28,486 bases of DNA from a virus, in IMG/VR virus record IMGVR_UViG_3300028298_000024, positions 1 through 28,486 of that record. The stretch is one strand, 5' to 3'. A model generated the notes under the pieces. That model ran no database searches. It saw only the letters and a list, made by a program, of their open reading frames with translations, and was not told where the DNA came from. The stretch's first letter is position 1. Each line of letters starts with the position of its first letter. A program made the translations under genes and the position numbers. This document shows, in pieces, positions 1,311 through 16,680 of the stretch.

Positions 1311-1523
1311 ATGCAAACCATTAAACGCTCTTGGGCTGAAAGTTGGACAAATATCTTAATCGGATTCTCTATTAATTCTATTGCTAACTTTATGATATTA
1401 CCTCTTTTTGGTTTTACTTCTTTAACTTGGCAAAAGAATATTTATTTGGGAATTATTTACACAGGTATTTCGCTTTTGCGTTCATTTTGCATTAGGAGAA
1501 TGTTTAATCGGGGGGATAAATGA
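1311..1523 (+). CDS. DUF7220-like small phage membrane protein
   Basis: A 70-residue protein with two predicted membrane segments (about residues 12-34 and 43-60). The pattern SWAESWTNILIGFSINSIAN, then LPLFGF, then GIIYTGISLLRSFCIRRMFN matches my memory of the DUF7220 family, a common small phage protein of unknown function with a conserved N-terminal helix, an LPLFG turn and an RS-x3-RR-x-FN end. Its stop overlaps the start of the next gene by ATGA, so it is translationally coupled to the methylase fusion. There is no clear ribosome site before the ATG. Role unknown. Confidence 0.72.
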   Translation: MQTIKRSWAESWTNILIGFSINSIANFMILPLFGFTSLTWQKNIYLGIIYTGISLLRSFCIRRMFNRGDK

Positions 1524-2941
1524 GTAAATTAAAGAAAATTGTTAATCATATGTTTAAACAGGAAGAATTTTTTAAAAGAAATATTGAATTTATTAAGGTT
1601 GATTCAGTTATTGGTTCAGGTTATGAAAATGATGTTGCGAAATTAGCTATAGAAGATGAGGTTGCTTATAGAGCCGCCAGGAAAAATATGCAGATACATT
1701 CAGCAATTATATTAAAAATTGACGGTAAATTCTCTGGATTTTTTACATTTCAAGTAAATCACGAAGTAGGGGAATTTTGTCTTTTGCAATCTGCAATGTC
1801 TTTAGACAAGAAAGATAAAGAGATTTATAGTCAAATGGTAGTCAAGATTATTGAACAAAACACTTTTGGTTATCCTATGATAATGACCGTTAGCACAAAA
1901 CACGATTTAGAGTGTCCAAAAGTTTTTGAGAAAATAGGGTTTAAAACATATTTGAATTTAAGTGGATATGAATATATGGTTTATGGAACATTAGACCAGG
2001 TAAGAATGAAAAGATTAGCTCACGCAACAATGACAAATGCTTGGACAACAACAAGAGCAGATTGGTTAAAGATGAAGAAGGAATGGAATGAAAAAATAGA
2101 AAATGCGGGGATTAAATATAAAGTTAAAAATCCAAAATTTGCCTCAAGAGATGGTTGTTGGCAAGGTTCAAGTGGTATGTCTAATGTTGTGTTATCTACA
2201 CAAACAGTCGAAAATGGAGAAATAAAAAATGAAAAAGGGCGTTCTTTCAATGGTAATGCTTCTGTTCTTGACCCTGTTGCTTGTGAAGTTATTGTTAGAT
2301 TTTTTATGCCAACGCAAGGGAAAAGAATTTATAATCCGTTTGGGGGAGGAGTTCAATTTGGTTTTGTTTCCGGAAGTTATGGTTATGAATACATAGCCAG
2401 TGAAATAAGGAAAAATCAATGCGATGCCAATAATACTATATGTCAAGACTTCAAAAACTGCAAATGGATTAAAAGTGATAGTTCAAAGTATAACCCAAAA
2501 GGAAAGTTTGATTTAATATTTTGTTGTCCACCGTATTATAAGGTTGAGGAATATCTTGATTATGATGGTAAACCACCAGAGGGAGAATTAAATTCAATTC
2601 CGACATATGAACAATTTAGAGATACTTTATTTATGGGTTATAAAAAAGGAATAGAGATATTAAATGATAATTGTTTTTTTGTTGTAATGACAGGTGATAG
2701 TAGAAATAAATATGGTGCTTATTATGGATGTGAGGCCGAACACGAACTATTCTTTAGAAATCAGGGTCTTCATATTTATAATAAGATTGTTTATTTAGAG
2801 TGTGAATTTACTCGTCTTGCACAAGCAAAAGTTACTTTAAATTATAGAAAATTTCCCAAAAGAGAACAGAAAATTTTAGTTTTTTATAAGGGGGATATTG
2901 AAAAAATCGGTGAACTTTATCCAAAAATTGGGAGATTATAA
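1520..2941 (+). CDS. GNAT-like domain fused to a ParB-associated-type DNA methylase
   Basis: A 473-residue two-domain protein. Residues about 20-155 look like a GNAT acyltransferase fold: strand SAIILKIDGKFSGFFTF, helix KEIYSQMVVKIIEQN, strand PMIMTVS and the terminal helix PKVFEKIGFKTY. Residues 205-470 are a Rossmann methylase like those carried by phage ParB-methylase proteins: SVLDPVACEVIVRFF (249-262), SAM-binding motif NPFGGG (272-277), acidic turn SEIRKNQ (294-300) and catalytic motif IV DLIFCCPPYY (331-340), then VVMTGDSRNK. The order of SAM motif before CPPY and the target chemistry suggest an amino-methylating DNA enzyme. The usual ParB domain is absent and a GNAT-like domain sits in its place. 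Phage Mu Mom, which hypermodifies adenine, is also a GNAT fold, so a second modification step is possible; this is inference. It overlaps both neighbours (ATGA and TAATG), and the gene is clearly more AT-rich than its surroundings. Confidence 0.8.
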   Translation: MSKLKKIVNHMFKQEEFFKRNIEFIKVDSVIGSGYENDVAKLAIEDEVAYRAARKNMQIHSAIILKIDGKFSGFFTFQVNHEVGEFCLLQSAMSLDKKDKEIYSQMVVKIIEQNTFGYPMIMTVSTKHDLECPKVFEKIGFKTYLNLSGYEYMVYGTLDQVRMKRLAHATMTNAWTTTRADWLKMKKEWNEKIENAGIKYKVKNPKFASRDGCWQGSSGMSNVVLSTQTVENGEIKNEKGRSFNGNASVLDPVACEVIVRFFMPTQGKRIYNPFGGGVQFGFVSGSYGYEYIASEIRKNQCDANNTICQDFKNCKWIKSDSSKYNPKGKFDLIFCCPPYYKVEEYLDYDGKPPEGELNSIPTYEQFRDTLFMGYKKGIEILNDNCFFVVMTGDSRNKYGAYYGCEAEHELFFRNQGLHIYNKIVYLECEFTRLAQAKVTLNYRKFPKREQKILVFYKGDIEKIGELYPKIGRL

Positions 2942-3741
2942 TGAAGAAATACAAGGGAATAATAACACTTAATAAAAATAATAGGGGTTGTTATATCCTT
3001 GATACAGTAAAAGGTTGTAGCGGTGGAAGAACATATAACAATAGGGGTTGTTATGGTGATTGTTATGCTAAAAAAATAGCAGATAGATATGGATTTGATT
3101 TCTTAGATACCAGAAAAAGAGAATTTAATAATAAAAGCGACCAATTATATTTCTTTGGATTTAGTGATTTAACACATACCAATAATATTATCCATCAAAT
3201 AAAAGATATAGAAATGCCTTTTGTTAGGATTGGCGAAATGGGCGACCCTTCAGAAAGTTGGGAACACACTCTTGAAATATGCACCGCAATTTCAAAGACT
3301 AATAAACCAATAGTCATTGTTACAAAACATTGGAAAAAAATACCTGATAAATTGCTAAAAATAGTTGAGGAATTGAGGTTGTGTATAAATACATCAGTAT
3401 CGGCTCTTGACGAAAATGATGAATTGCGTTATAGACTTAATCAGTTTAATCGACTTAAAAGTGTATGTAATTCAGTTCTTAGGATAGTTTCGTGTGATTT
3501 TAATAAAAATAACGAAGATGGATTTAATTTATCAAAAATACAAAATGAACTATTTAAATATGATAAACATATTGATACTATATTTAGACCCAGCAAAGAT
3601 AATCCGTTTGTTTTAAGTGGAGTTATAAAAACTGAAAAGGTTAAATTCTTAAATTCTTTAGTATTAGTAAGTGTTTTTAATAAAAATACATATTTTGGTA
3701 AATGCAATAATTGTCCTGATATGTGTGGTATCAAAAAATAA
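2941..3741 (+). CDS. Radical-SAM-like protein with atypical cysteine spacing
   Basis: A 266-residue protein starting on the last base of the methylase stop (TAATG). It has two cysteine groups: C26 with the pair C37-x3-C41 in RGCYGDCYAKKIADRYG, and a C-terminal C255-x2-C258-x3-C262 in CNNCPDMCG. The GCY..CYAKK start, the strand FVRIGEMGDPSESWEHT and the later VIVTKHWKKIP strand resemble the phage GP88/DUF5131-type radical-SAM-like proteins, which use CYA-type clusters instead of the textbook C-x3-C-x2-C. NTSVSALDE and LRIVSCDFN are further barrel-like strands. A 15-base repeat (2980-2994 and 3040-3054, exactly 60 bases apart) encodes NNRGCY twice. Physical coupling to the GNAT-methylase suggests the two act on the same DNA base, for example by adding a carbon group or rearranging an adduct. 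Family call moderate; function inferred. Confidence 0.65.
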   Translation: MKKYKGIITLNKNNRGCYILDTVKGCSGGRTYNNRGCYGDCYAKKIADRYGFDFLDTRKREFNNKSDQLYFFGFSDLTHTNNIIHQIKDIEMPFVRIGEMGDPSESWEHTLEICTAISKTNKPIVIVTKHWKKIPDKLLKIVEELRLCINTSVSALDENDELRYRLNQFNRLKSVCNSVLRIVSCDFNKNNEDGFNLSKIQNELFKYDKHIDTIFRPSKDNPFVLSGVIKTEKVKFLNSLVLVSVFNKNTYFGKCNNCPDMCGIKK

Positions 3742-5284: not shown

Positions 5285-5511
5285 GTAAGAATTTAGAATT
5301 TAAAGAGATCCGGCGAAATAGATTTGGACGCAGATGGGCTATAAAACAGAATGGCAAAATAATTCATCAAGGTTATAACTTTGTTTTTGGGAGAGAATTA
5401 TTTGAGAAATTAAAGACAGAAGATGTTGGCTTGTGGCGTAAAATGGATAAAGCGTGCCCGAAAGGGTATGATGCAGGTTCAAGTCCTGCCAAGCCACTAA
5501 GGAGATTATGA
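5281..5511 (+). CDS. Hypothetical protein whose 3' end contains a tRNA-like sequence
   Basis: TTG start at 5281 (AAGGAG eight bases upstream), overlapping the previous stop. The first 48 residues look like an ordinary small protein (FGRRWAIKQNGKIIHQGYNF). The last third, from about residue 49, is translated from the tRNA-like element at 5427-5497, and its tail reads DAGSSPAKPLRRL, the signature left when a T-arm is read as protein. Either the protein truly uses this sequence, or an element inserted into and replaced its original end. Real coding up to the element is likely; the exact C-terminus is uncertain. Confidence 0.5.
   Translation: MSKNLEFKEIRRNRFGRRWAIKQNGKIIHQGYNFVFGRELFEKLKTEDVGLWRKMDKACPKGYDAGSSPAKPLRRL
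5427..5497 (+). ncRNA. tRNA-like structure lacking an anticodon loop
   Basis: A complete tRNA outline is present. Acceptor stem TGGCTTG (5427-5433) pairs perfectly with CAAGCCA (5490-5496). T8 and purine 9 follow; a D-arm (5436-5439 with 5450-5453, one mismatch) holds A14 and the GG pair; a perfect five-pair T-arm GCAGG/CCTGC encloses loop TTCAAGT (5478-5484). Where the anticodon arm should be there is a six-pair stem (5454-5459 with 5464-5469, two wobbles) capped by the tetraloop GAAA. No seven-base anticodon loop can be drawn, so it cannot decode. No CCA is encoded. It may be a processing signal for RNase P/RNase Z, a decayed tRNA or an attachment-site relic. Confidence 0.6.
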
Positions 5512-6615: not shown

Positions 6616-6819
6616 ATGCTCTCTCTTAAAACCGAACTCTCTTGTTTAGTCCAAGAATTCTACTCCGGCTCTACAGAGGACTGGTGCAAGGAGAGATTTA
6701 ATAAATCAGTATCCGAATTGACCGAGGATGAATTAGGCGAGGCTCTTTTTATGGCAAAGGATGAAGCAGAGAGGAAGAGGAAGGAATATAACCAATTAAC
6801 GGAGGTGTCAAATGTGTAA
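6616..6819 (+). CDS. Small acidic helical protein
   Basis: A 67-residue protein rich in glutamate (LTEDELGEALFMAKDEAERKRKEYN), starting five bases after the previous stop. One long charged helix is evident and no motif. It overlaps the next gene by eight bases, so translation is coupled. Function unknown. Confidence 0.58.
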   Translation: MLSLKTELSCLVQEFYSGSTEDWCKERFNKSVSELTEDELGEALFMAKDEAERKRKEYNQLTEVSNV

Positions 6820-7546
6820 ATTTTTTAGTCTATGCTCGCAAGGTGATGGCAAGCCATTATATTTTAATGCTGAAATTCGCCAGAAGATTTTAGATAAAAC
6901 CCTAAACTATGAATTAGATTCTCATACTTCAATCGCTGATTATTATGGGCATAAAGCAGAAAAAGAAGATTTACTTAATAAATATGAATACAATGTCTGG
7001 ACAAAATATTTAGAGATTGACCATTTAGGGGCAAAAGATGATTCCAAACAGATAAAAGATTTTTGTGATAAATTGGATTTTAAGACTGTTGTCCCTAATT
7101 TAATAATCAAACCAGTTATAAATCCATTAAAAGATATTCAGACTCTAAAAATTACCAAAGCAGATATTAAATTATTAAAAGAGTGGGATTCGGTCGGGGC
7201 TTCGGTCTGGGCTTCGGTCTGGGCTTCGGTCGGGGCTTCGGTCTGGGATTCGGTCGGGGATTCGGTCTGGGCTTCGGTCAGGGATTCGGTCAGGGATTCG
7301 GTCGGGGCTTCGGTCTGGGCTTCGGTCGGGGCTTCGGTCTGGGATTCGGTCTGTAATTCGGTCAGGGCTTCGGTCTGGGCTTATATAGCAACTTTTGTAA
7401 AAGCAGAATATAAATATAATCTAAAACCTGCCCAGAAACTTTGGGAACGAGGATTAGTCGCAAGTTTTGATGGGACTTCGTGGCGTTTGCATGGAAAAGA
7501 CGGAAGAGAATTATACAAAATTACACAAGAGGAATTAAAGAAATGA
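6812..7546 (+). CDS. Phage protein with 16 tandem x-[AD]-S-V tetrapeptide repeats
   Basis: A 244-residue protein in three parts. Residues 1-124 are a globular head (MCKFFSLCSQGDGKPLYF, then LDSHTSIADYYG and NLIIKPVINPL) of a type I have seen in other phage proteins without known function. Residues 125-188 are 16 uninterrupted four-residue repeats with W, G, R (once C) at position 1, A or D (once N) at position 2, then S-V. Residues 189-244 form a second small domain (LKPAQKLWERGLVASFDGTSWRLHG). A valine every fourth residue suggests a regular solenoid or extended fibre-like stack, which is inference. Start supported by GGAGG at 6801-6805. The repeat is much richer in GC than the rest of the window. 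Confidence 0.68.
   Translation: MCKFFSLCSQGDGKPLYFNAEIRQKILDKTLNYELDSHTSIADYYGHKAEKEDLLNKYEYNVWTKYLEIDHLGAKDDSKQIKDFCDKLDFKTVVPNLIIKPVINPLKDIQTLKITKADIKLLKEWDSVGASVWASVWASVGASVWDSVGDSVWASVRDSVRDSVGASVWASVGASVWDSVCNSVRASVWAYIATFVKAEYKYNLKPAQKLWERGLVASFDGTSWRLHGKDGRELYKITQEELKK
7184..7375 (+). repeat. 12-base tandem repeat, 16 copies
   Basis: Sixteen copies of a 12-base unit of form NGG-GMT-TCG-GTC (one copy TGT-AAT). Serine is always TCG and valine always GTC. Essentially all differences fall in the first base of codon 1 (T/G/A) and the second base of codon 2 (A/C), so every change alters the protein. The tract is far higher in GC than its surroundings. Confidence 0.95.
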
Positions 7547-11551: not shown

Positions 11552-11646
11552 ATAAATTATATCTATGCCCTTTGGCAATCATACTTTTAATCTGGACACA
11601 TTTTTTTCCGGATAAGTCGGAATATAAAAGTGAGGACTGGGGATAA
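11539..11646 (+). CDS. 35-residue single-span membrane protein
   Basis: ATG at 11539 overlaps the end of the coiled-coil gene, and the stop overlaps the next ATG (TAATG). Product: a short hydrophobic segment LYLCPLAIILLIWTHFF with a small acidic tail. Tight overlaps on both sides support translation. Function unknown. Confidence 0.5.
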   Translation: MAQINKLYLCPLAIILLIWTHFFPDKSEYKSEDWG

Positions 11647-12272
11647 TGGATAAATTCTACCATCGTTATTGGCAGGACAAGCACATTAAAATTAATCCAT
11701 TTGACCATATCCCACAATGGACAGAAGAAAACTTTAAATATCATATTAAATTTTTTGACGAAACCGTTGAGGGGGTAGTCTTAGATTTTGGTGTAGGCGA
11801 TGGATATTTCTTAGATAAAATTAGAAGTTCCTGCAAAGAAGTTTATGGTATGGATATTTCTAATTTAGCAATCACTAAAGCAATGGTTTTACATCCTCAT
11901 CTTAATTTAGGATTATCGGAGCATTCCTATACCTTCCGTGAGGGATTTTTTGATACTATCTTTTGTCTTGATGTTTTAGAACATATCTTAGATATTGAAA
12001 CTACTTTAGAGGAATTTTACCGGCTATTAAAAGTTGGCGGTTATTTGTGTATCACTACTTCTCAGCTCACAAGGTTAAAACTTTTAATGATTATAATGTC
12101 AGGTATAGATTTATATTTCTACCCTACCTCTCCACATATCCGATATTTTACCAAATGGAATTTAGAGGATATTCTAAAGAGGAAAGGATTTCAAGTGATA
12201 AAATATCAGGCGAATAGAAAGTATTTTGGGATAATCCCACAAGGGCAAATGGTGATTGCGAGGAAGATATGA
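11646..12272 (+). CDS. SAM-dependent methyltransferase (class I), first of a pair
   Basis: A 208-residue Rossmann methyltransferase. SAM-binding motif I VVLDFGVGDG (44-53), the acidic end of strand 2 in VYGMDIS, the strand-4 motif DTIFCLDVLEHI and the post-motif YRLLKVGGYLCITT are all present, fitting the Methyltransf_11/23 group. Such enzymes act on small molecules, sugars or lipids. The N-terminal run YHRYWQDKHIKINPFDHIP resembles IWEQHWQDKPIEEYPDYHS of the gene at 14524, so the two are probably paralogues. It opens the surface-modification-like block together with the B12 radical SAM enzyme. Confidence 0.85.
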   Translation: MDKFYHRYWQDKHIKINPFDHIPQWTEENFKYHIKFFDETVEGVVLDFGVGDGYFLDKIRSSCKEVYGMDISNLAITKAMVLHPHLNLGLSEHSYTFREGFFDTIFCLDVLEHILDIETTLEEFYRLLKVGGYLCITTSQLTRLKLLMIIMSGIDLYFYPTSPHIRYFTKWNLEDILKRKGFQVIKYQANRKYFGIIPQGQMVIARKI

Positions 12273-12418
12273 AGAAAAAAATAAAATGGAAAAGGAAAGG
12301 ATGGAAAAATCCAATATATTTCCCTTATAAAGAATGTGGTTTAAGATTAAAAGATGTTAAAAAAATGTTAAGTGATATAAGTAAAGCCAATGAAAATTTT
12401 ATTAGTTCAACCCTTTAA
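12269..12418 (+). CDS. 49-residue basic hypothetical protein
   Basis: Starts at the ATGA overlap with the methyltransferase and overlaps the first 29 bases of the radical SAM gene in another frame. The start is very basic (MKKKIKWKRKGWKNPIYF), the rest a helix (RLKDVKKMLSDISKANENF). Coupled on both sides, so probably translated, perhaps to set the level of the next gene. Confidence 0.45.
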   Translation: MKKKIKWKRKGWKNPIYFPYKECGLRLKDVKKMLSDISKANENFISSTL

Positions 12419-13724
12419 GGATACTTCTCTCGGCAGGCAATCCTATCCTCCTCTTGGTTTAGGTTACCTCGCATACAATCTTATGCTCTTAGGGGTTAAG
12501 TATTGGAATGTATCTATTTTAGATTGCCTTATTGAGAATAGGACTTATAATGACTTCGCTAAGTCTTTACACTTCTATAAACCTGATGTAGTGGGCATAA
12601 GTGTGTTTTCAATCTCTGTGCCTTATGTAAAGCAAATGGTAAGGATAATTAGATGCTTATACCCCAAATGTAAAATCGTATTAGGCGGGGCGCATATCTC
12701 CGCTCTGCCTGAAAGAGTAATTGACGAGTTCCCGGAAGCAGATTTCTTTATCCGAGGTGAGGGCGAAGTGCCTTTTACTAATTTGTTAAAGTCAGATTTT
12801 AACGCCCCTAAGATTAACGAACCTTACTTCGCCAAGAACATAGAAGATTATGGTTATCCGGCGTGGTTTGAAATTCAACCACAGAGATATTTCAAGTATC
12901 TAAATATCGGCAGGGATAGTGCGCCGGTATTCTTTTCCAGGGGTTGTCCATTCCCTTGTACTTTCTGCGCCGCCAAAGTTACATCAGGACAGAATCTAAG
13001 AAAACGGAGTATGGGGCATATATTTTATGAGTTAGAAAACTTAAAATACTTCCACAAAGTCAGGCGTTTTATAATTGAAGATGAGGGTTTCGGGACTTCT
13101 AAAGATTTCATTATGGAGTTCTGTAATGAAGTATTTAAGCGTAACTTTAAGGCAAAATTTGTAATGGGTGTTGGTATGCGATTAGACATTATAGACAGCG
13201 AATTACTTTGTGCTATGAGGGAAGTAGGTTTTAAGAAAAATATCCCTTTAGGAATTGAGAGTGGTTCACAACGCATTTTAGACTTAATGAGAAAACATAC
13301 CACACTTGATTTAATCAGGGAAAAAGTAAATCTAATGGATAACTATGGCTTTAAGCCTTCTGGCTATTTTATGCTAGGCTATCCTACCGAAACAAAAGAG
13401 GAAATGGAAGAAACTGTTAAATTATCCCTATCCTTGCCCTTACGAGAGGCTGGGTTCACCGCATTTCAGCCTTTACCGGCAACAGAAGCCACGAGATATT
13501 TAATGCTTACAGGTGAACTCCCAAGCGATTTTGATTTTACTACTGGCACACCTAATAAAATTACTTATGCCCCCAAAGGCACGACTTTAGAAGAATTGGA
13601 AGGAATACGGAAAGGAGCAATTTTAAGATTTTGGTTACGCCCTACACACTTTTGGCGGTGTTTTAATTTATTCTCGGTGATTAAATTGATAACGATATTT
13701 TTTAGAAACAATACGAGGAGATAA
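12390..13724 (+). CDS. B12-binding-type radical SAM enzyme
   Basis: A 444-residue protein with the two-domain build of cobalamin-dependent radical SAM enzymes (BchE/hopanoid and P-methylase type). An N-terminal Rossmann domain (about 1-135, with VVGISVFSISVPYV and the IVLGGAH loop near 97-102) is followed by a radical SAM barrel with the canonical cluster C186-x3-C190-x2-C193 in RGCPFPCTFCAAK. FIIEDEGFG, LGIESGSQRILDLM and GYFMLGYPTET are standard barrel motifs. The cobalamin His motif D-x-H-x2-G is not seen (the place reads DCLIENR), so cofactor binding could be base-off or lost. Members do radical methylation or ring formation on lipids and natural products. In a phage it would be auxiliary; with methyltransferases and a glycosyltransferase next to it, a glycan or lipid target is likely. 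Confidence 0.85.
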   Translation: MKILLVQPFKDTSLGRQSYPPLGLGYLAYNLMLLGVKYWNVSILDCLIENRTYNDFAKSLHFYKPDVVGISVFSISVPYVKQMVRIIRCLYPKCKIVLGGAHISALPERVIDEFPEADFFIRGEGEVPFTNLLKSDFNAPKINEPYFAKNIEDYGYPAWFEIQPQRYFKYLNIGRDSAPVFFSRGCPFPCTFCAAKVTSGQNLRKRSMGHIFYELENLKYFHKVRRFIIEDEGFGTSKDFIMEFCNEVFKRNFKAKFVMGVGMRLDIIDSELLCAMREVGFKKNIPLGIESGSQRILDLMRKHTTLDLIREKVNLMDNYGFKPSGYFMLGYPTETKEEMEETVKLSLSLPLREAGFTAFQPLPATEATRYLMLTGELPSDFDFTTGTPNKITYAPKGTTLEELEGIRKGAILRFWLRPTHFWRCFNLFSVIKLITIFFRNNTRR

Positions 13725-13726
13725 AA

Positions 13727-13951
13727 ATGGAATTAACGAATGATAAAGATTGGTGTCCTAATCATACTAAAGAATATATTCTAGGCGGTCTTAAAGGGGG
13801 TGCTATTCCTTATTTGCTTGATACAGTAGACAATTCTGGATTGGTTTGTTATAAATGTCATAAACTATTCACTTGGGAGGAAATTGAAGAGATTGCTGAA
13901 GTAAAAATAGAAATTGGTGAAAATATATTTGGTAACAGAAGAGTTGATTAA
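13727..13951 (+). CDS. Small zinc-type hypothetical protein
   Basis: A 74-residue protein starting just after the radical SAM stop with GAGGAG upstream. It has DWCPNHTKEY and CYKCHKLFTWEEIEE, giving a Cys/His site and a C-x2-C, then an acidic tail. Likely a small zinc-binding protein; role unknown. Confidence 0.58.
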   Translation: MELTNDKDWCPNHTKEYILGGLKGGAIPYLLDTVDNSGLVCYKCHKLFTWEEIEEIAEVKIEIGENIFGNRRVD

Positions 13952-13980
13952 ATTATTCACAATATTTTTCAGGAGGAACT

Positions 13981-14184
13981 ATGGCAGTTAAAGGCGGTGG
14001 TAATCAGTGGCAGAAACCTGGCTTTTCAGTTTTTATGGGAAGCAATACTGAACAGAAATATGACAAATGCCTAAAATGTAGGTTATATAAAAGCCCCAAA
14101 TGTAAGACTTGCAAAAAGTATAATAAATTTGAGGATAGAGGTTGGGTTTTGGTTGACAAGAGGAAATATGACAAAACTTCGTAA
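13981..14184 (+). CDS. Small zinc-knuckle protein
   Basis: A 67-residue protein behind AGGAGG. The core CLKCRLYKSPKCKTCKKYN is a four-cysteine knuckle (C-x2-C and C-x2-C). The glycine-rich start (VKGGGNQWQKPG) and basic residues suggest RNA or DNA contact. It overlaps the next gene by 17 bases. Confidence 0.6.
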   Translation: MAVKGGGNQWQKPGFSVFMGSNTEQKYDKCLKCRLYKSPKCKTCKKYNKFEDRGWVLVDKRKYDKTS

Positions 14185-14527
14185 ATGTGGACTATGTAAG
14201 AAACCTTCAGGAAAATTAGCACAATGCCATATCTTTAAGACATTTATGCGAACTTACGGCAGACCTCCTTCATATTTTTTAAGGTTTCCTGAATTTTGTA
14301 AAGAAATGAATATTCAGCCTGAACGAAAGATAGAGGAAATTTGTGGAACATCTACGGTATATTTGTGTGATGATTGCAAAAGAAAAGAATATACTCGTTG
14401 CGGTAAGAGTTTTAAGCCAAAAATATTAGAAGATGATTATTTTAGACCTCAAAGAAATCCTAATGACCCTACGACTTGGGTTAATTATGAATTTACAAAA
14501 GAAGATGATAAGGAATATGGGTTATGA
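14168..14527 (+). CDS. HNH-like zinc protein (tentative)
   Basis: The ATG at 14168 with GAGG upstream is chosen over upstream starts in the same frame. The 119-residue protein begins RKCGLCKKPSGKLAQCHIFKTFMRTYG, which recalls the start of HNH endonucleases (C-x2-C, then a histidine followed by I/F). A second pair CDDCKRKEYTRCG follows. The classical later H-N-H residues are not obvious, so it may be only a zinc-binding relative. Its stop overlaps the next start. Confidence 0.45.
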   Translation: MTKLRKCGLCKKPSGKLAQCHIFKTFMRTYGRPPSYFLRFPEFCKEMNIQPERKIEEICGTSTVYLCDDCKRKEYTRCGKSFKPKILEDDYFRPQRNPNDPTTWVNYEFTKEDDKEYGL

Positions 14528-15303
14528 ATGACTTAATCTCAATCTGGGAACAACACTGGCAAGATAAACCAATAGAAGAATATCCTGATTACCATAGTCA
14601 TTGGTTTGAGTCGCATAGAAAGATTTTAGACAGGTATTTATTCAAAGGAAATCTTGATGATTTTTGCGGGTTTGATATTGTTAATGCCGGATGCGGATTA
14701 GGTCAATGGGTATTTTATTGTGCAAAGCAAGCCGCAGGTTGGGTTACTCGTAGAAGGATTATAGGTTTGGATATTGCTAAAGATACGATATGCAGATTAA
14801 ATATCTTCATAAGGGAAGAAAGGTTTAATAATCGGAAAATGAGATTTATGGTTGATGATATAAGGGATATTAAAAGCATTAAAGAAAATTCCTGCCATTT
14901 AGTCTTTAGTTTCGGAGTGGTAGAGCATTTCAAAGAGGATAGATTAGCTTTAGAGCAATTTTATAGGATACTCTGTTTTGGCGGTTATGCTATAATAAGT
15001 GTGCCTAATCTTTATACTACTACGACTTTAACAGAACCTATTGCGAGGTTATTCGGTATATGGGGATTGGGGAAGCAGAAACACTATACACGGAAATCAT
15101 TAAGAAAGATAATCCCTGAAGGTTTTGAAATCATAGAAGAAAACATATTGCCTACTGGTGAATTGCTCGGAAGTTTTGCGATAAGAATGCCCTTAATCGG
15201 TAAATGGTTATTGGGAGTTTTACAAAGGATAAGTTTATTTATTGAAAAACGCTCTAAAGTATTCGGCTTTATGAGGTATGTTGTGATTAAAAAAAGGAGT
15301 TAA
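14524..15303 (+). CDS. SAM-dependent methyltransferase (class I), second of a pair
   Basis: A 259-residue methyltransferase. Motif I VNAGCGLG (53-60), acidic residue D83 in IIGLDIAKD, the strand HLVFSFGVVEHF and the segment YRILCFGGYAIISVPN are clear. A C-terminal extension (about 200-259) has a hydrophobic helix (RMPLIGKWLLGVLQRISLF) that could touch the membrane. The N-terminal WQDK motif is shared with the gene at 11646. It directly precedes, by zero bases, the TMTC-like glycosyltransferase, which supports a membrane glycan or lipid substrate. Confidence 0.85.
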   Translation: MNDLISIWEQHWQDKPIEEYPDYHSHWFESHRKILDRYLFKGNLDDFCGFDIVNAGCGLGQWVFYCAKQAAGWVTRRRIIGLDIAKDTICRLNIFIREERFNNRKMRFMVDDIRDIKSIKENSCHLVFSFGVVEHFKEDRLALEQFYRILCFGGYAIISVPNLYTTTTLTEPIARLFGIWGLGKQKHYTRKSLRKIIPEGFEIIEENILPTGELLGSFAIRMPLIGKWLLGVLQRISLFIEKRSKVFGFMRYVVIKKRS

Positions 15304-16680
15304 ATGTATTCTTTATTGATTATTCTATTAGTTTTAGTAGTATTTTTTCCCACCTTAAGAAGCGGTTATGTTATTGATGATGAAGACGTCAAGAATGTCG
15401 CTCGCCACGAACCTAAAAATAAATGGCAGAAGTTTTACTGGCAATTCAAGGGTTATAAATACTTTGATTCACAACCTGAACATTTAATCAATCTTATTTT
15501 ACATCTCATGGTTTGTCTTTTGATTTATTTTGCTTTTGGGCAAGATAAGGTTTCTTTTTTAACAGCTTGCTTATTCGCAGTAAATCCGGCAGGTACACAA
15601 GGCTCAATCTGGCTCTCTGGAAAAGGATATACCCTAACTGCTATTGTAATGCTCTTGGCGTGGTGGCTATGTCCCTTGTTCTATCTTCTAACCCCCTTTG
15701 TGGCTTTAAGCGGAATTTTAGCCCCTTTTTTGTTCTTAAAGACTTCTTGGTGGTGGGTGGGGTTAATTCCTGTTGTGGTTATTTTTATGAAATATTCACC
15801 AACACAAAGCCACGCCTTAAAACACAGGTTAAATGAAACTGCCGGAATAGGGAATAAGATTTCTCCCATAAAGGCAGTCATTGCATTAAAGACCTTGGGT
15901 TACTATTTCTGTCTTGCGTTGTTTCCTATCCGTTTAGGGATTTACCATAAATATTTATACACCTATTCGCTTTCGGAAGCAGATAATAAATACTGGGAAA
16001 AAATAGACAGGTTTTTTTGGATAGGGCTAACAGTATTTTTAGTCTTAATCTATAACTACTTCTTTAACTATAATCAAACTGTCTTCGGTTTATTCTGGTT
16101 CTTTATCTTTATCGCTCCATTCTTAAATCTTATGTCATTGGGTCAGGCAATAGGGGAGCGATATTTATATTTGGCTATGATTGGAGTAATGTATTCATTG
16201 GCAAATATGATTATGTTAATCCCTGATTACTCTATAAGGTTAGTAGTCTTTACTTCAATATTTGTTTACTATCTCACCCGTTTACAATTCCATATCCCTA
16301 CTTATAAGAACATAGAAGCCTGTGTTGAATATAATATGTTAAACTTTCCTGATATGCACGCAGTATGGCTATGGAAAGGACAACTTGACAGGAAGAATGG
16401 TTCTTACTTCACTGCTTTAGAAAACTGGTTCAAGGGCTGGAAGATTAGAAAAGTTGACTTCCGGCTTAATAATAATATCGCTGTAATGCTTACCGAGTTA
16501 GGTTTCTTAAATGACGCAGAAGCATTCTTAAAGAACGCCGAAGAAAACATAATCCCGGAACAAAGGAAAATCGCTATGGAGTATATCACCAAACAACGGG
16601 AGATAATCGCCAATGAAAGGAAAAGATTGAATAACCAGCATATTGCAAACAAGATTATAATGCCAGGAAGGAGAAGTTAG
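15304..16680 (+). CDS. TMTC-like GT-C glycosyltransferase with C-terminal helical repeats
   Basis: A 458-residue multi-pass membrane protein starting directly after the methyltransferase stop. It keeps the outline of the TMTC/PMT type GT-C fold: YVIDDEDV with the paired aspartates 25-26 on the first outside loop, EHLINLILHLMVCLL (59-73), FAVNPAGTQGSIWLSGKGYTL (91-111, the site usually reading HP-x3-E and W-x-S-GR), and LALFPIRLGIYHKYLYTY (204-221), which fits DUF1736. About ten membrane helices lead to a soluble end (about 345-440) of TPR-like helices (AVWLWKGQLDRKNGSYFTALE). Enzymes of this kind move a sugar from a polyprenyl carrier to a protein or glycan. Two conserved polar residues appear changed (see findings). 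Very unusual in a phage. Confidence 0.7.
   Translation: MYSLLIILLVLVVFFPTLRSGYVIDDEDVKNVARHEPKNKWQKFYWQFKGYKYFDSQPEHLINLILHLMVCLLIYFAFGQDKVSFLTACLFAVNPAGTQGSIWLSGKGYTLTAIVMLLAWWLCPLFYLLTPFVALSGILAPFLFLKTSWWWVGLIPVVVIFMKYSPTQSHALKHRLNETAGIGNKISPIKAVIALKTLGYYFCLALFPIRLGIYHKYLYTYSLSEADNKYWEKIDRFFWIGLTVFLVLIYNYFFNYNQTVFGLFWFFIFIAPFLNLMSLGQAIGERYLYLAMIGVMYSLANMIMLIPDYSIRLVVFTSIFVYYLTRLQFHIPTYKNIEACVEYNMLNFPDMHAVWLWKGQLDRKNGSYFTALENWFKGWKIRKVDFRLNNNIAVMLTELGFLNDAEAFLKNAEENIIPEQRKIAMEYITKQREIIANERKRLNNQHIANKIIMPGRRS

Follow-up and report, generated by a model that had tools for sequence, protein, structure and literature searches.

We describe a two-gene unit of a tailed phage that probably serves as a DNA-base hypermodification cassette. 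Its first gene encodes a GNAT fold joined to a methylase domain, its second gene encodes a protein with a radical-SAM-type fold, and the two form an almost inseparable pair in well above 100 contigs of uncultured phages. We base the hypermodification reading on the domain folds, the invariant motifs, the pairing and fusion of the genes, the exchange of one partner, and a genomic context of replication and DNA modification genes. From these lines of evidence we infer DNA as the target, as well as the modified base, the order in which the steps occur, a radical mechanism, acyl transfer, and the biological role.

The window, by which we mean the whole stretch of DNA analysed, is a 28.5 kb piece of the phage genome, whose genes for terminase, portal, and major head protein lie between 17.9 and 24.5 kb. 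The two open reading frames of the cassette were found where the first-pass annotation had placed them, with one base common to both (Table 1). A DUF7220 gene lies directly upstream and a phage exonuclease fragment farther upstream, and replication protein O is encoded downstream. The exonuclease fragment and replication protein O thus place the cassette among early replication genes. A second block (positions 11646-16680), unrelated to the cassette, looks like a glycan or lipid modification block. The window also encodes a protein with a tandem run of WASVWASVGASVWDSV units and no Pfam match (6812-7546), and a tRNA-like gene of unclear anticodon that overlaps an open reading frame (5427-5497, ARAGORN).

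Table 1 Positions of the cassette features and of the second gene block in the window
Feature	Position	Strand	Remarks
GNAT-fold and methylase fusion protein, 473 aa	1520-2941	+	Relatives in viral contigs, 80 of 101 retrieved; model pLDDT 81
GNAT-fold domain, residues 20-157	1577-1990	+	Structural similarity to NatC 7rb3
Methylase domain, residues 235-473, ParB-methylase (CPPY) clade	2222-2938	+	PHROGs matches
NPFGGG, SAM-binding motif I, residues 272-277	2333-2350	+	Invariant, 58 relatives
CPPYY, motif IV with Cys replacing D/N/S, residues 336-340	2525-2539	+	Invariant, 58 relatives
Radical-SAM-fold partner (second protein), 266 aa, DUF5131-related	2941-3741	+	Model pLDDT 91.8
C26-x10-C37-x3-C41 in GC...GC...CYA, proposed atypical [4Fe-4S] triad	3016-3063	+	Invariant
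R-x-G-x-x-G-D-P motif where a core strand ends	3226-3249	+	R96, G98, and P103 invariant
C-terminal C255-x2-C258-x3-C262, possible second metal site	3703-3726	+	Invariant
SAM methyltransferases of the second block	11646-12272, 14524-15303		
B12-binding radical SAM protein of the second block	12390-13724		
Multi-span membrane protein of the second block	15304-16680		

Searched as a lone query, the second protein gave no matches in viral contigs and none in 50,697 records of named phages; loci were collected through the GNAT-methylase and then with a profile of the second protein. The GNAT-methylase search yielded 80 viral loci, 79 of which had a radical-SAM partner adjoining or fused. A relative of the second protein occupied this place in 71 of the 80, mostly downstream of the GNAT-methylase and in six loci upstream (L008, L065, L068, and L073-L075). 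Fusions with the partner at the N-terminus of the GNAT-methylase were found in 16 of the 80 viral loci and also in four bacterial contigs, while the unfused genes mostly overlapped by 1 or 4 bases. The reverse search, with the second-protein profile, added 71 new loci, each having the first gene immediately upstream (at least its methylase part was counted where the contig was cut or the frame broken); some loci share contigs between the two search directions, so this count and the 79 of 80 are not independent. The survey of the pair in other phages that the first-pass annotation had proposed therefore finds the two genes together almost always. With the methylase, the GNAT fold, and the radical-SAM fold nearly inseparable and often fused, the simplest reading is that they act together on one substrate.

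Nine of the 80 loci had no relative of the second protein. Eight of them encoded a protein with the canonical C-x3-C-x2-C motif (one frame-broken, L053), and in the ninth (L043) the contig begins 165 bases before the GNAT-methylase gene and no partner lies downstream. Such a canonical protein was found in the slot of the second protein in ten distinct loci, and six of six tested matched Pfam Radical_SAM (best E 9.5e-12). The canonical partner was scattered over a tree of 118 distinct methylases, with nine changes on the best tree, of which at least six were forced by supported branches (quick method). These forced changes make the two kinds appear interchangeable: atypical and canonical radical-SAM partners seem able to stand in for one another, an argument for radical-SAM-like work by the atypical protein. 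The profiles of the two partners are weakly related (hhalign E 5e-4 to 8e-4, probability 25-31%). Elsewhere in phages, a ParB-domain or ParB-methylase protein starts no more than 1.5 kb downstream of the canonical family in 34 of 69 loci.

Residues 228-470 of the first protein fall into phage ParB-methylase families of PHROGs (phrog_12517, E 3.5e-35; phrog_498, E 1.8e-34), and Pfam gave the protein weak methylase matches only. In the AlphaFold model, the methylase fold spans residues 162-458 and is closest to Trm11/TrmN (Z 17-18). Both motifs picked out at first pass, NPFGGG and CPPYY, proved invariant among the relatives. All 10 relatives compared from outside the GNAT family also have CPPY, and 79 of 81 proteins in the wider ParB-methylase clade carry it where [DNS]PPY is usual. 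The N-terminus of comparable phage methylases is ParB; among the families matched by 58 members of the GNAT-methylase group there was no ParB_N, and a GNAT fold lies there instead, in agreement with the earlier suggestion that the ParB domain had been replaced. The phage ParB-domain DNA methylases of phrog_498 (e.g., Listeria B054 gp77 and Enterococcus phiFL3A gp36) have the methylase domain in common with the cassette (~30-35% identity), including an FxGG motif I followed by CPPY, but carry a ParB N-terminus where the cassette has the GNAT fold together with a radical-SAM-fold partner. In Riemerella (L238:5683-7323), the same methylase has a different N-terminal domain, GNAT/FemAB-like by eye, and no adjoining radical-SAM gene; two genes upstream, an 889 aa HNH_4 protein resembling Cas9 is encoded. 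PADLOC returned only a weak MADS methylase match for the fusion protein and no match for either kind of radical-SAM partner.

The GNAT-like N-terminus, previously supposed at about residues 20-155, was not detectable by Pfam and emerged as a confident GNAT fold in structure comparison. In a model built from 58 relatives, its nearest solved fold was NatC (7rb3; Z 15.6, rmsd 2.4, 130 aligned), and further acetyltransferases matched at Z 14.7-15.4. RAARKNMQ-x-HSA and E-x-CLLQS are invariant in this domain. The acyl-CoA site expected by the first-pass annotation did not appear in its canonical form: none of the 58 relatives has the CoA pyrophosphate motif [RQ]xxGx[GA] where it would be expected, with one chance match elsewhere. 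Its comparison with Mom of phage Mu also failed at the level of sequence, where the GNAT profile did not match Mom and hhalign, with a shallow Mom alignment, gave a probability of 0.2%. Given the missing canonical motif and the lack of sequence relation to Mom, acyl transfer by this domain is plausible only through its modelled fold. Mom is a single protein of 241 aa that likewise has a GNAT-superfamily fold, used in phage DNA modification (PMC7824862), but its sequence relation to the cassette domain is undetectable.

The second protein, modelled from an alignment of 50 relatives, has a radical-SAM-type fold. Its nearest solved structure was spore photoproduct lyase (Z 11.8), followed by viperin, SuiB, RlmN, and pyruvate formate-lyase activating enzyme, and radical SAM enzymes or their relatives fill all 50 matches listed (Z 8.2-11.8). 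Foldseek matches were weaker (best E 1e-3, to HydE; best viral match to a phage 'Radical SAM protein', E 6e-4), and sequence searches of the PDB gave no useful match. Spore photoproduct lyase belongs to the radical SAM enzymes and has DNA as its substrate. The second protein resembles it in fold but is only 12% identical to it, has C-x10-C-x3-C and an extra C-terminal C-x2-C-x3-C, and is fused or coupled to a methylase. The fold and the co-occurrence of the genes largely remove the grounds on which the first-pass annotation would have given up its proposal, namely a structure prediction with no acyl-CoA site in the N-terminus and no cluster site in the second protein, or two genes never found together.

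The six cysteines noted in the first pass, C26, C37, C41, C255, C258, and C262, are invariant in the 50-sequence alignment, and both triads are kept in 106 of 108 distinct relatives. The N-terminal spacing across the family is C-x9..25-C-x3-C, whereas the canonical CxxxCxxC occurs within the first 120 residues of one of the 108 proteins. The whole R-x-G-x-x-G-D-P stretch is nearly invariant; by alignment, its counterpart in the canonical partner family is GGMTD. Among 50 family members, Pfam Radical_SAM had no match at E up to 5, and the protein in the window itself had no convincing match to a library family. A radical-SAM-like type akin to GP88 and DUF5131 had been proposed; the radical-SAM-type fold and a distant relationship to DUF5131 hold, but none of the 50 members matches GP88 (PF17338). 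Three of the 50 matched DUF5131 (PF07505) weakly (best E 0.001, below the membership cut-off), and the family profile aligned with that of DUF5131 (hhalign probability 72%, E 3.4e-5) with its three N-terminal cysteines on those of DUF5131. Judged by sequence, the second protein is thus related to DUF5131 and not a member of it. Retrieved DUF5131 members show both the canonical C-x3-C-x2-C and an extended C-x6-C-x2-C spacing, and we read C26-x10-C37-x3-C41 as a predicted expanded cluster triad. DUF5131 and GP88, whose profiles hit the same proteins in two genomes, have the same GC...GC..CYA arrangement as the second protein, which differs from them in its GNAT-methylase partner. A separate 461 aa protein (L253:784-2169) combines a ParB-like N-terminus (by eye) with a C-terminal DUF5131 domain bearing the canonical CxxxCxxC.

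Pfam annotation of 136 distinct cassette neighbours identified DnaB helicase, toprim, YqaJ, NinG, ERF, and HNH proteins, as well as five C5 DNA methylases and two TET-associated (TAGT) glycosyltransferases. A fit of the cassette context to DNA modification is supported by these neighbours. A 698 aa protein at L211:6624-8720 has an N-terminal TET-associated glycosyltransferase domain and a weak radical-SAM match further in. Relatives were rare in bacteria, with only seven when one genome per species was searched (84,980 species). They came from Massilibacteroides, Desulfobacterales, Desulfobacula, Smithella, an unclassified bacterium, and Spirochaetes (mostly labelled MAG), and from Riemerella (methylase alone). 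Several of these groups are anaerobes, which would suit an oxygen-sensitive enzyme. It is possible that these bacterial relatives are mis-binned phage contigs.

The cassette in the window had a G+C content of 29.7%, compared with a window mean of 36.1% (sd 2.5), and was below every other sampled stretch of equal length. The AT-richness reported in the first pass is therefore real, but the recent gain read from it is weakly founded. In 17 relatives, the cassette G+C tracked that of its own contig (27-56%) and was on average 3.5 points below the flanks, so AT-richness alone does not show recent import, and we rejected this argument for it as unsupported.

In the hypermodification that we consider probable, the methylase domain would bind DNA, flip out a base, and alkylate it. 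The radical-SAM-fold partner would then generate a radical with which to functionalise either the alkylated base or the group added to it, and the GNAT-fold domain would complete or cap that group. The finished base would protect the phage DNA from host nucleases. A more specific version, which we put forward tentatively, is that the fused form (in the window, the coupled pair) combines CPPY alkylation, a radical step relying on an atypical cysteine triad, and capping of the GNAT type to yield a base so far unknown from nature. That base would belong to a set of tailored products from a widespread clade of CPPY alkyltransferases, which in other loci works with SAM decarboxylase homologues or PLP enzymes.

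The first step may differ from this scheme. Proteins of the CPPY clade could be alkyltransferases of a SAM-derived group, with partners such as SAM decarboxylase, PLP enzymes, or the GNAT and radical-SAM folds making or tailoring the donor. This is still DNA hypermodification and overlaps our preferred explanation, and as the account of the first step we find it somewhat doubtful. A SAM decarboxylase homologue was encoded in 45 of 80 ParB-CPPY methylase loci (L282-L361), nearly always as the next gene downstream, but these loci had been chosen by similarity to a query with SpeD as its own neighbour. The named phages ZRG1 and P2559S likewise have a SAM decarboxylase homologue with a ParB-CPPY methylase, and in AlanGrant, Mae-JY30, and Pam4 a PLP enzyme lies next door to or inside the methylase gene. 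The Mae-JY30 protein (L274:3786-4496, XAI96327.1) is annotated as 'DNA modification methylase' and matches Pfam PALP (PLP-dependent; E 4.6e-12), and in Pam4 a PALP-like stretch is inserted within the methylase. Together with the near-universal CPPY, these neighbours suggest that what the clade transfers or anchors may be non-methyl groups derived from SAM. A precedent is CmoX, a phage DNA methylase homologue that uses carboxy-SAM (PMC12783734). For the ParB-CPPY methylases with SAM decarboxylase, a DNA modification using decarboxylated SAM or a polyamine is possible; phage SpeD homologues, however, can be ornithine or arginine decarboxylases (PMC10407285). For the cassette itself, SAM decarboxylase was absent from the fetched flanks of GNAT-methylase loci and from 21 cassette-bearing contigs. 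One row of genes (L305:1234-5040) encodes a second radical-SAM-like protein, a canonical SPL-like radical SAM protein, a ParB-CPPY methylase, and a SAM decarboxylase homologue.

The cassette might instead carry out plain DNA methylation, with the GNAT fold inactive and binding DNA or the partner in the place of ParB, and the second protein acting in repair or quality control like spore photoproduct lyase. The lack of the canonical CoA motif, the ParB domain of methylase relatives at the corresponding place, the other N-terminal domain of the Riemerella relative that has no radical-SAM partner, and the rank of spore photoproduct lyase as nearest solved structure all agree with this. Near inseparability from one particular methylase, or fusion to it, would however be surprising in a repair enzyme, and the six cysteines and core motifs of the second protein are all invariant; we therefore judge plain methylation unlikely. 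Modification of tRNA, for example to resist tRNA-cleaving defences of the host, is conceivable because the methylase fold ranks closest to the tRNA m2G methylases Trm11/TrmN and because tRNA modification employs enzymes of both the radical SAM and the GNAT kind, but it is the least probable reading and distinctly unlikely, since the methylase groups by sequence with phage ParB-methylases annotated as DNA methyltransferases, the neighbouring genes are those of DNA replication and DNA modification, and Pfam detected no RNA-binding domain.

Hypermodification by the cassette would resemble, in its enzyme classes, the thymidine hypermodification of phages M6, ViI, and others, in which radical SAM enzymes and acetyltransferases tailor the bases of phage DNA. 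Those pathways start from 5-hydroxymethyluridine, whereas the base-recognising component of the cassette is a methylase. In a literature search of partial coverage, we found no methylase-anchored version with a fixed GNAT and radical-SAM architecture, and no paper linking radical SAM enzymes to DNA hypermodification. Hypermodification of phage DNA both yields new chemistry and confers resistance to host nucleases, and the fused forms of the cassette offer a single protein to express and a single nucleoside to seek. The repeated exchange of atypical and canonical partners in one slot provides a natural test of whether the C-x10-C-x3-C family and its DUF5131 relatives are real radical SAM enzymes.
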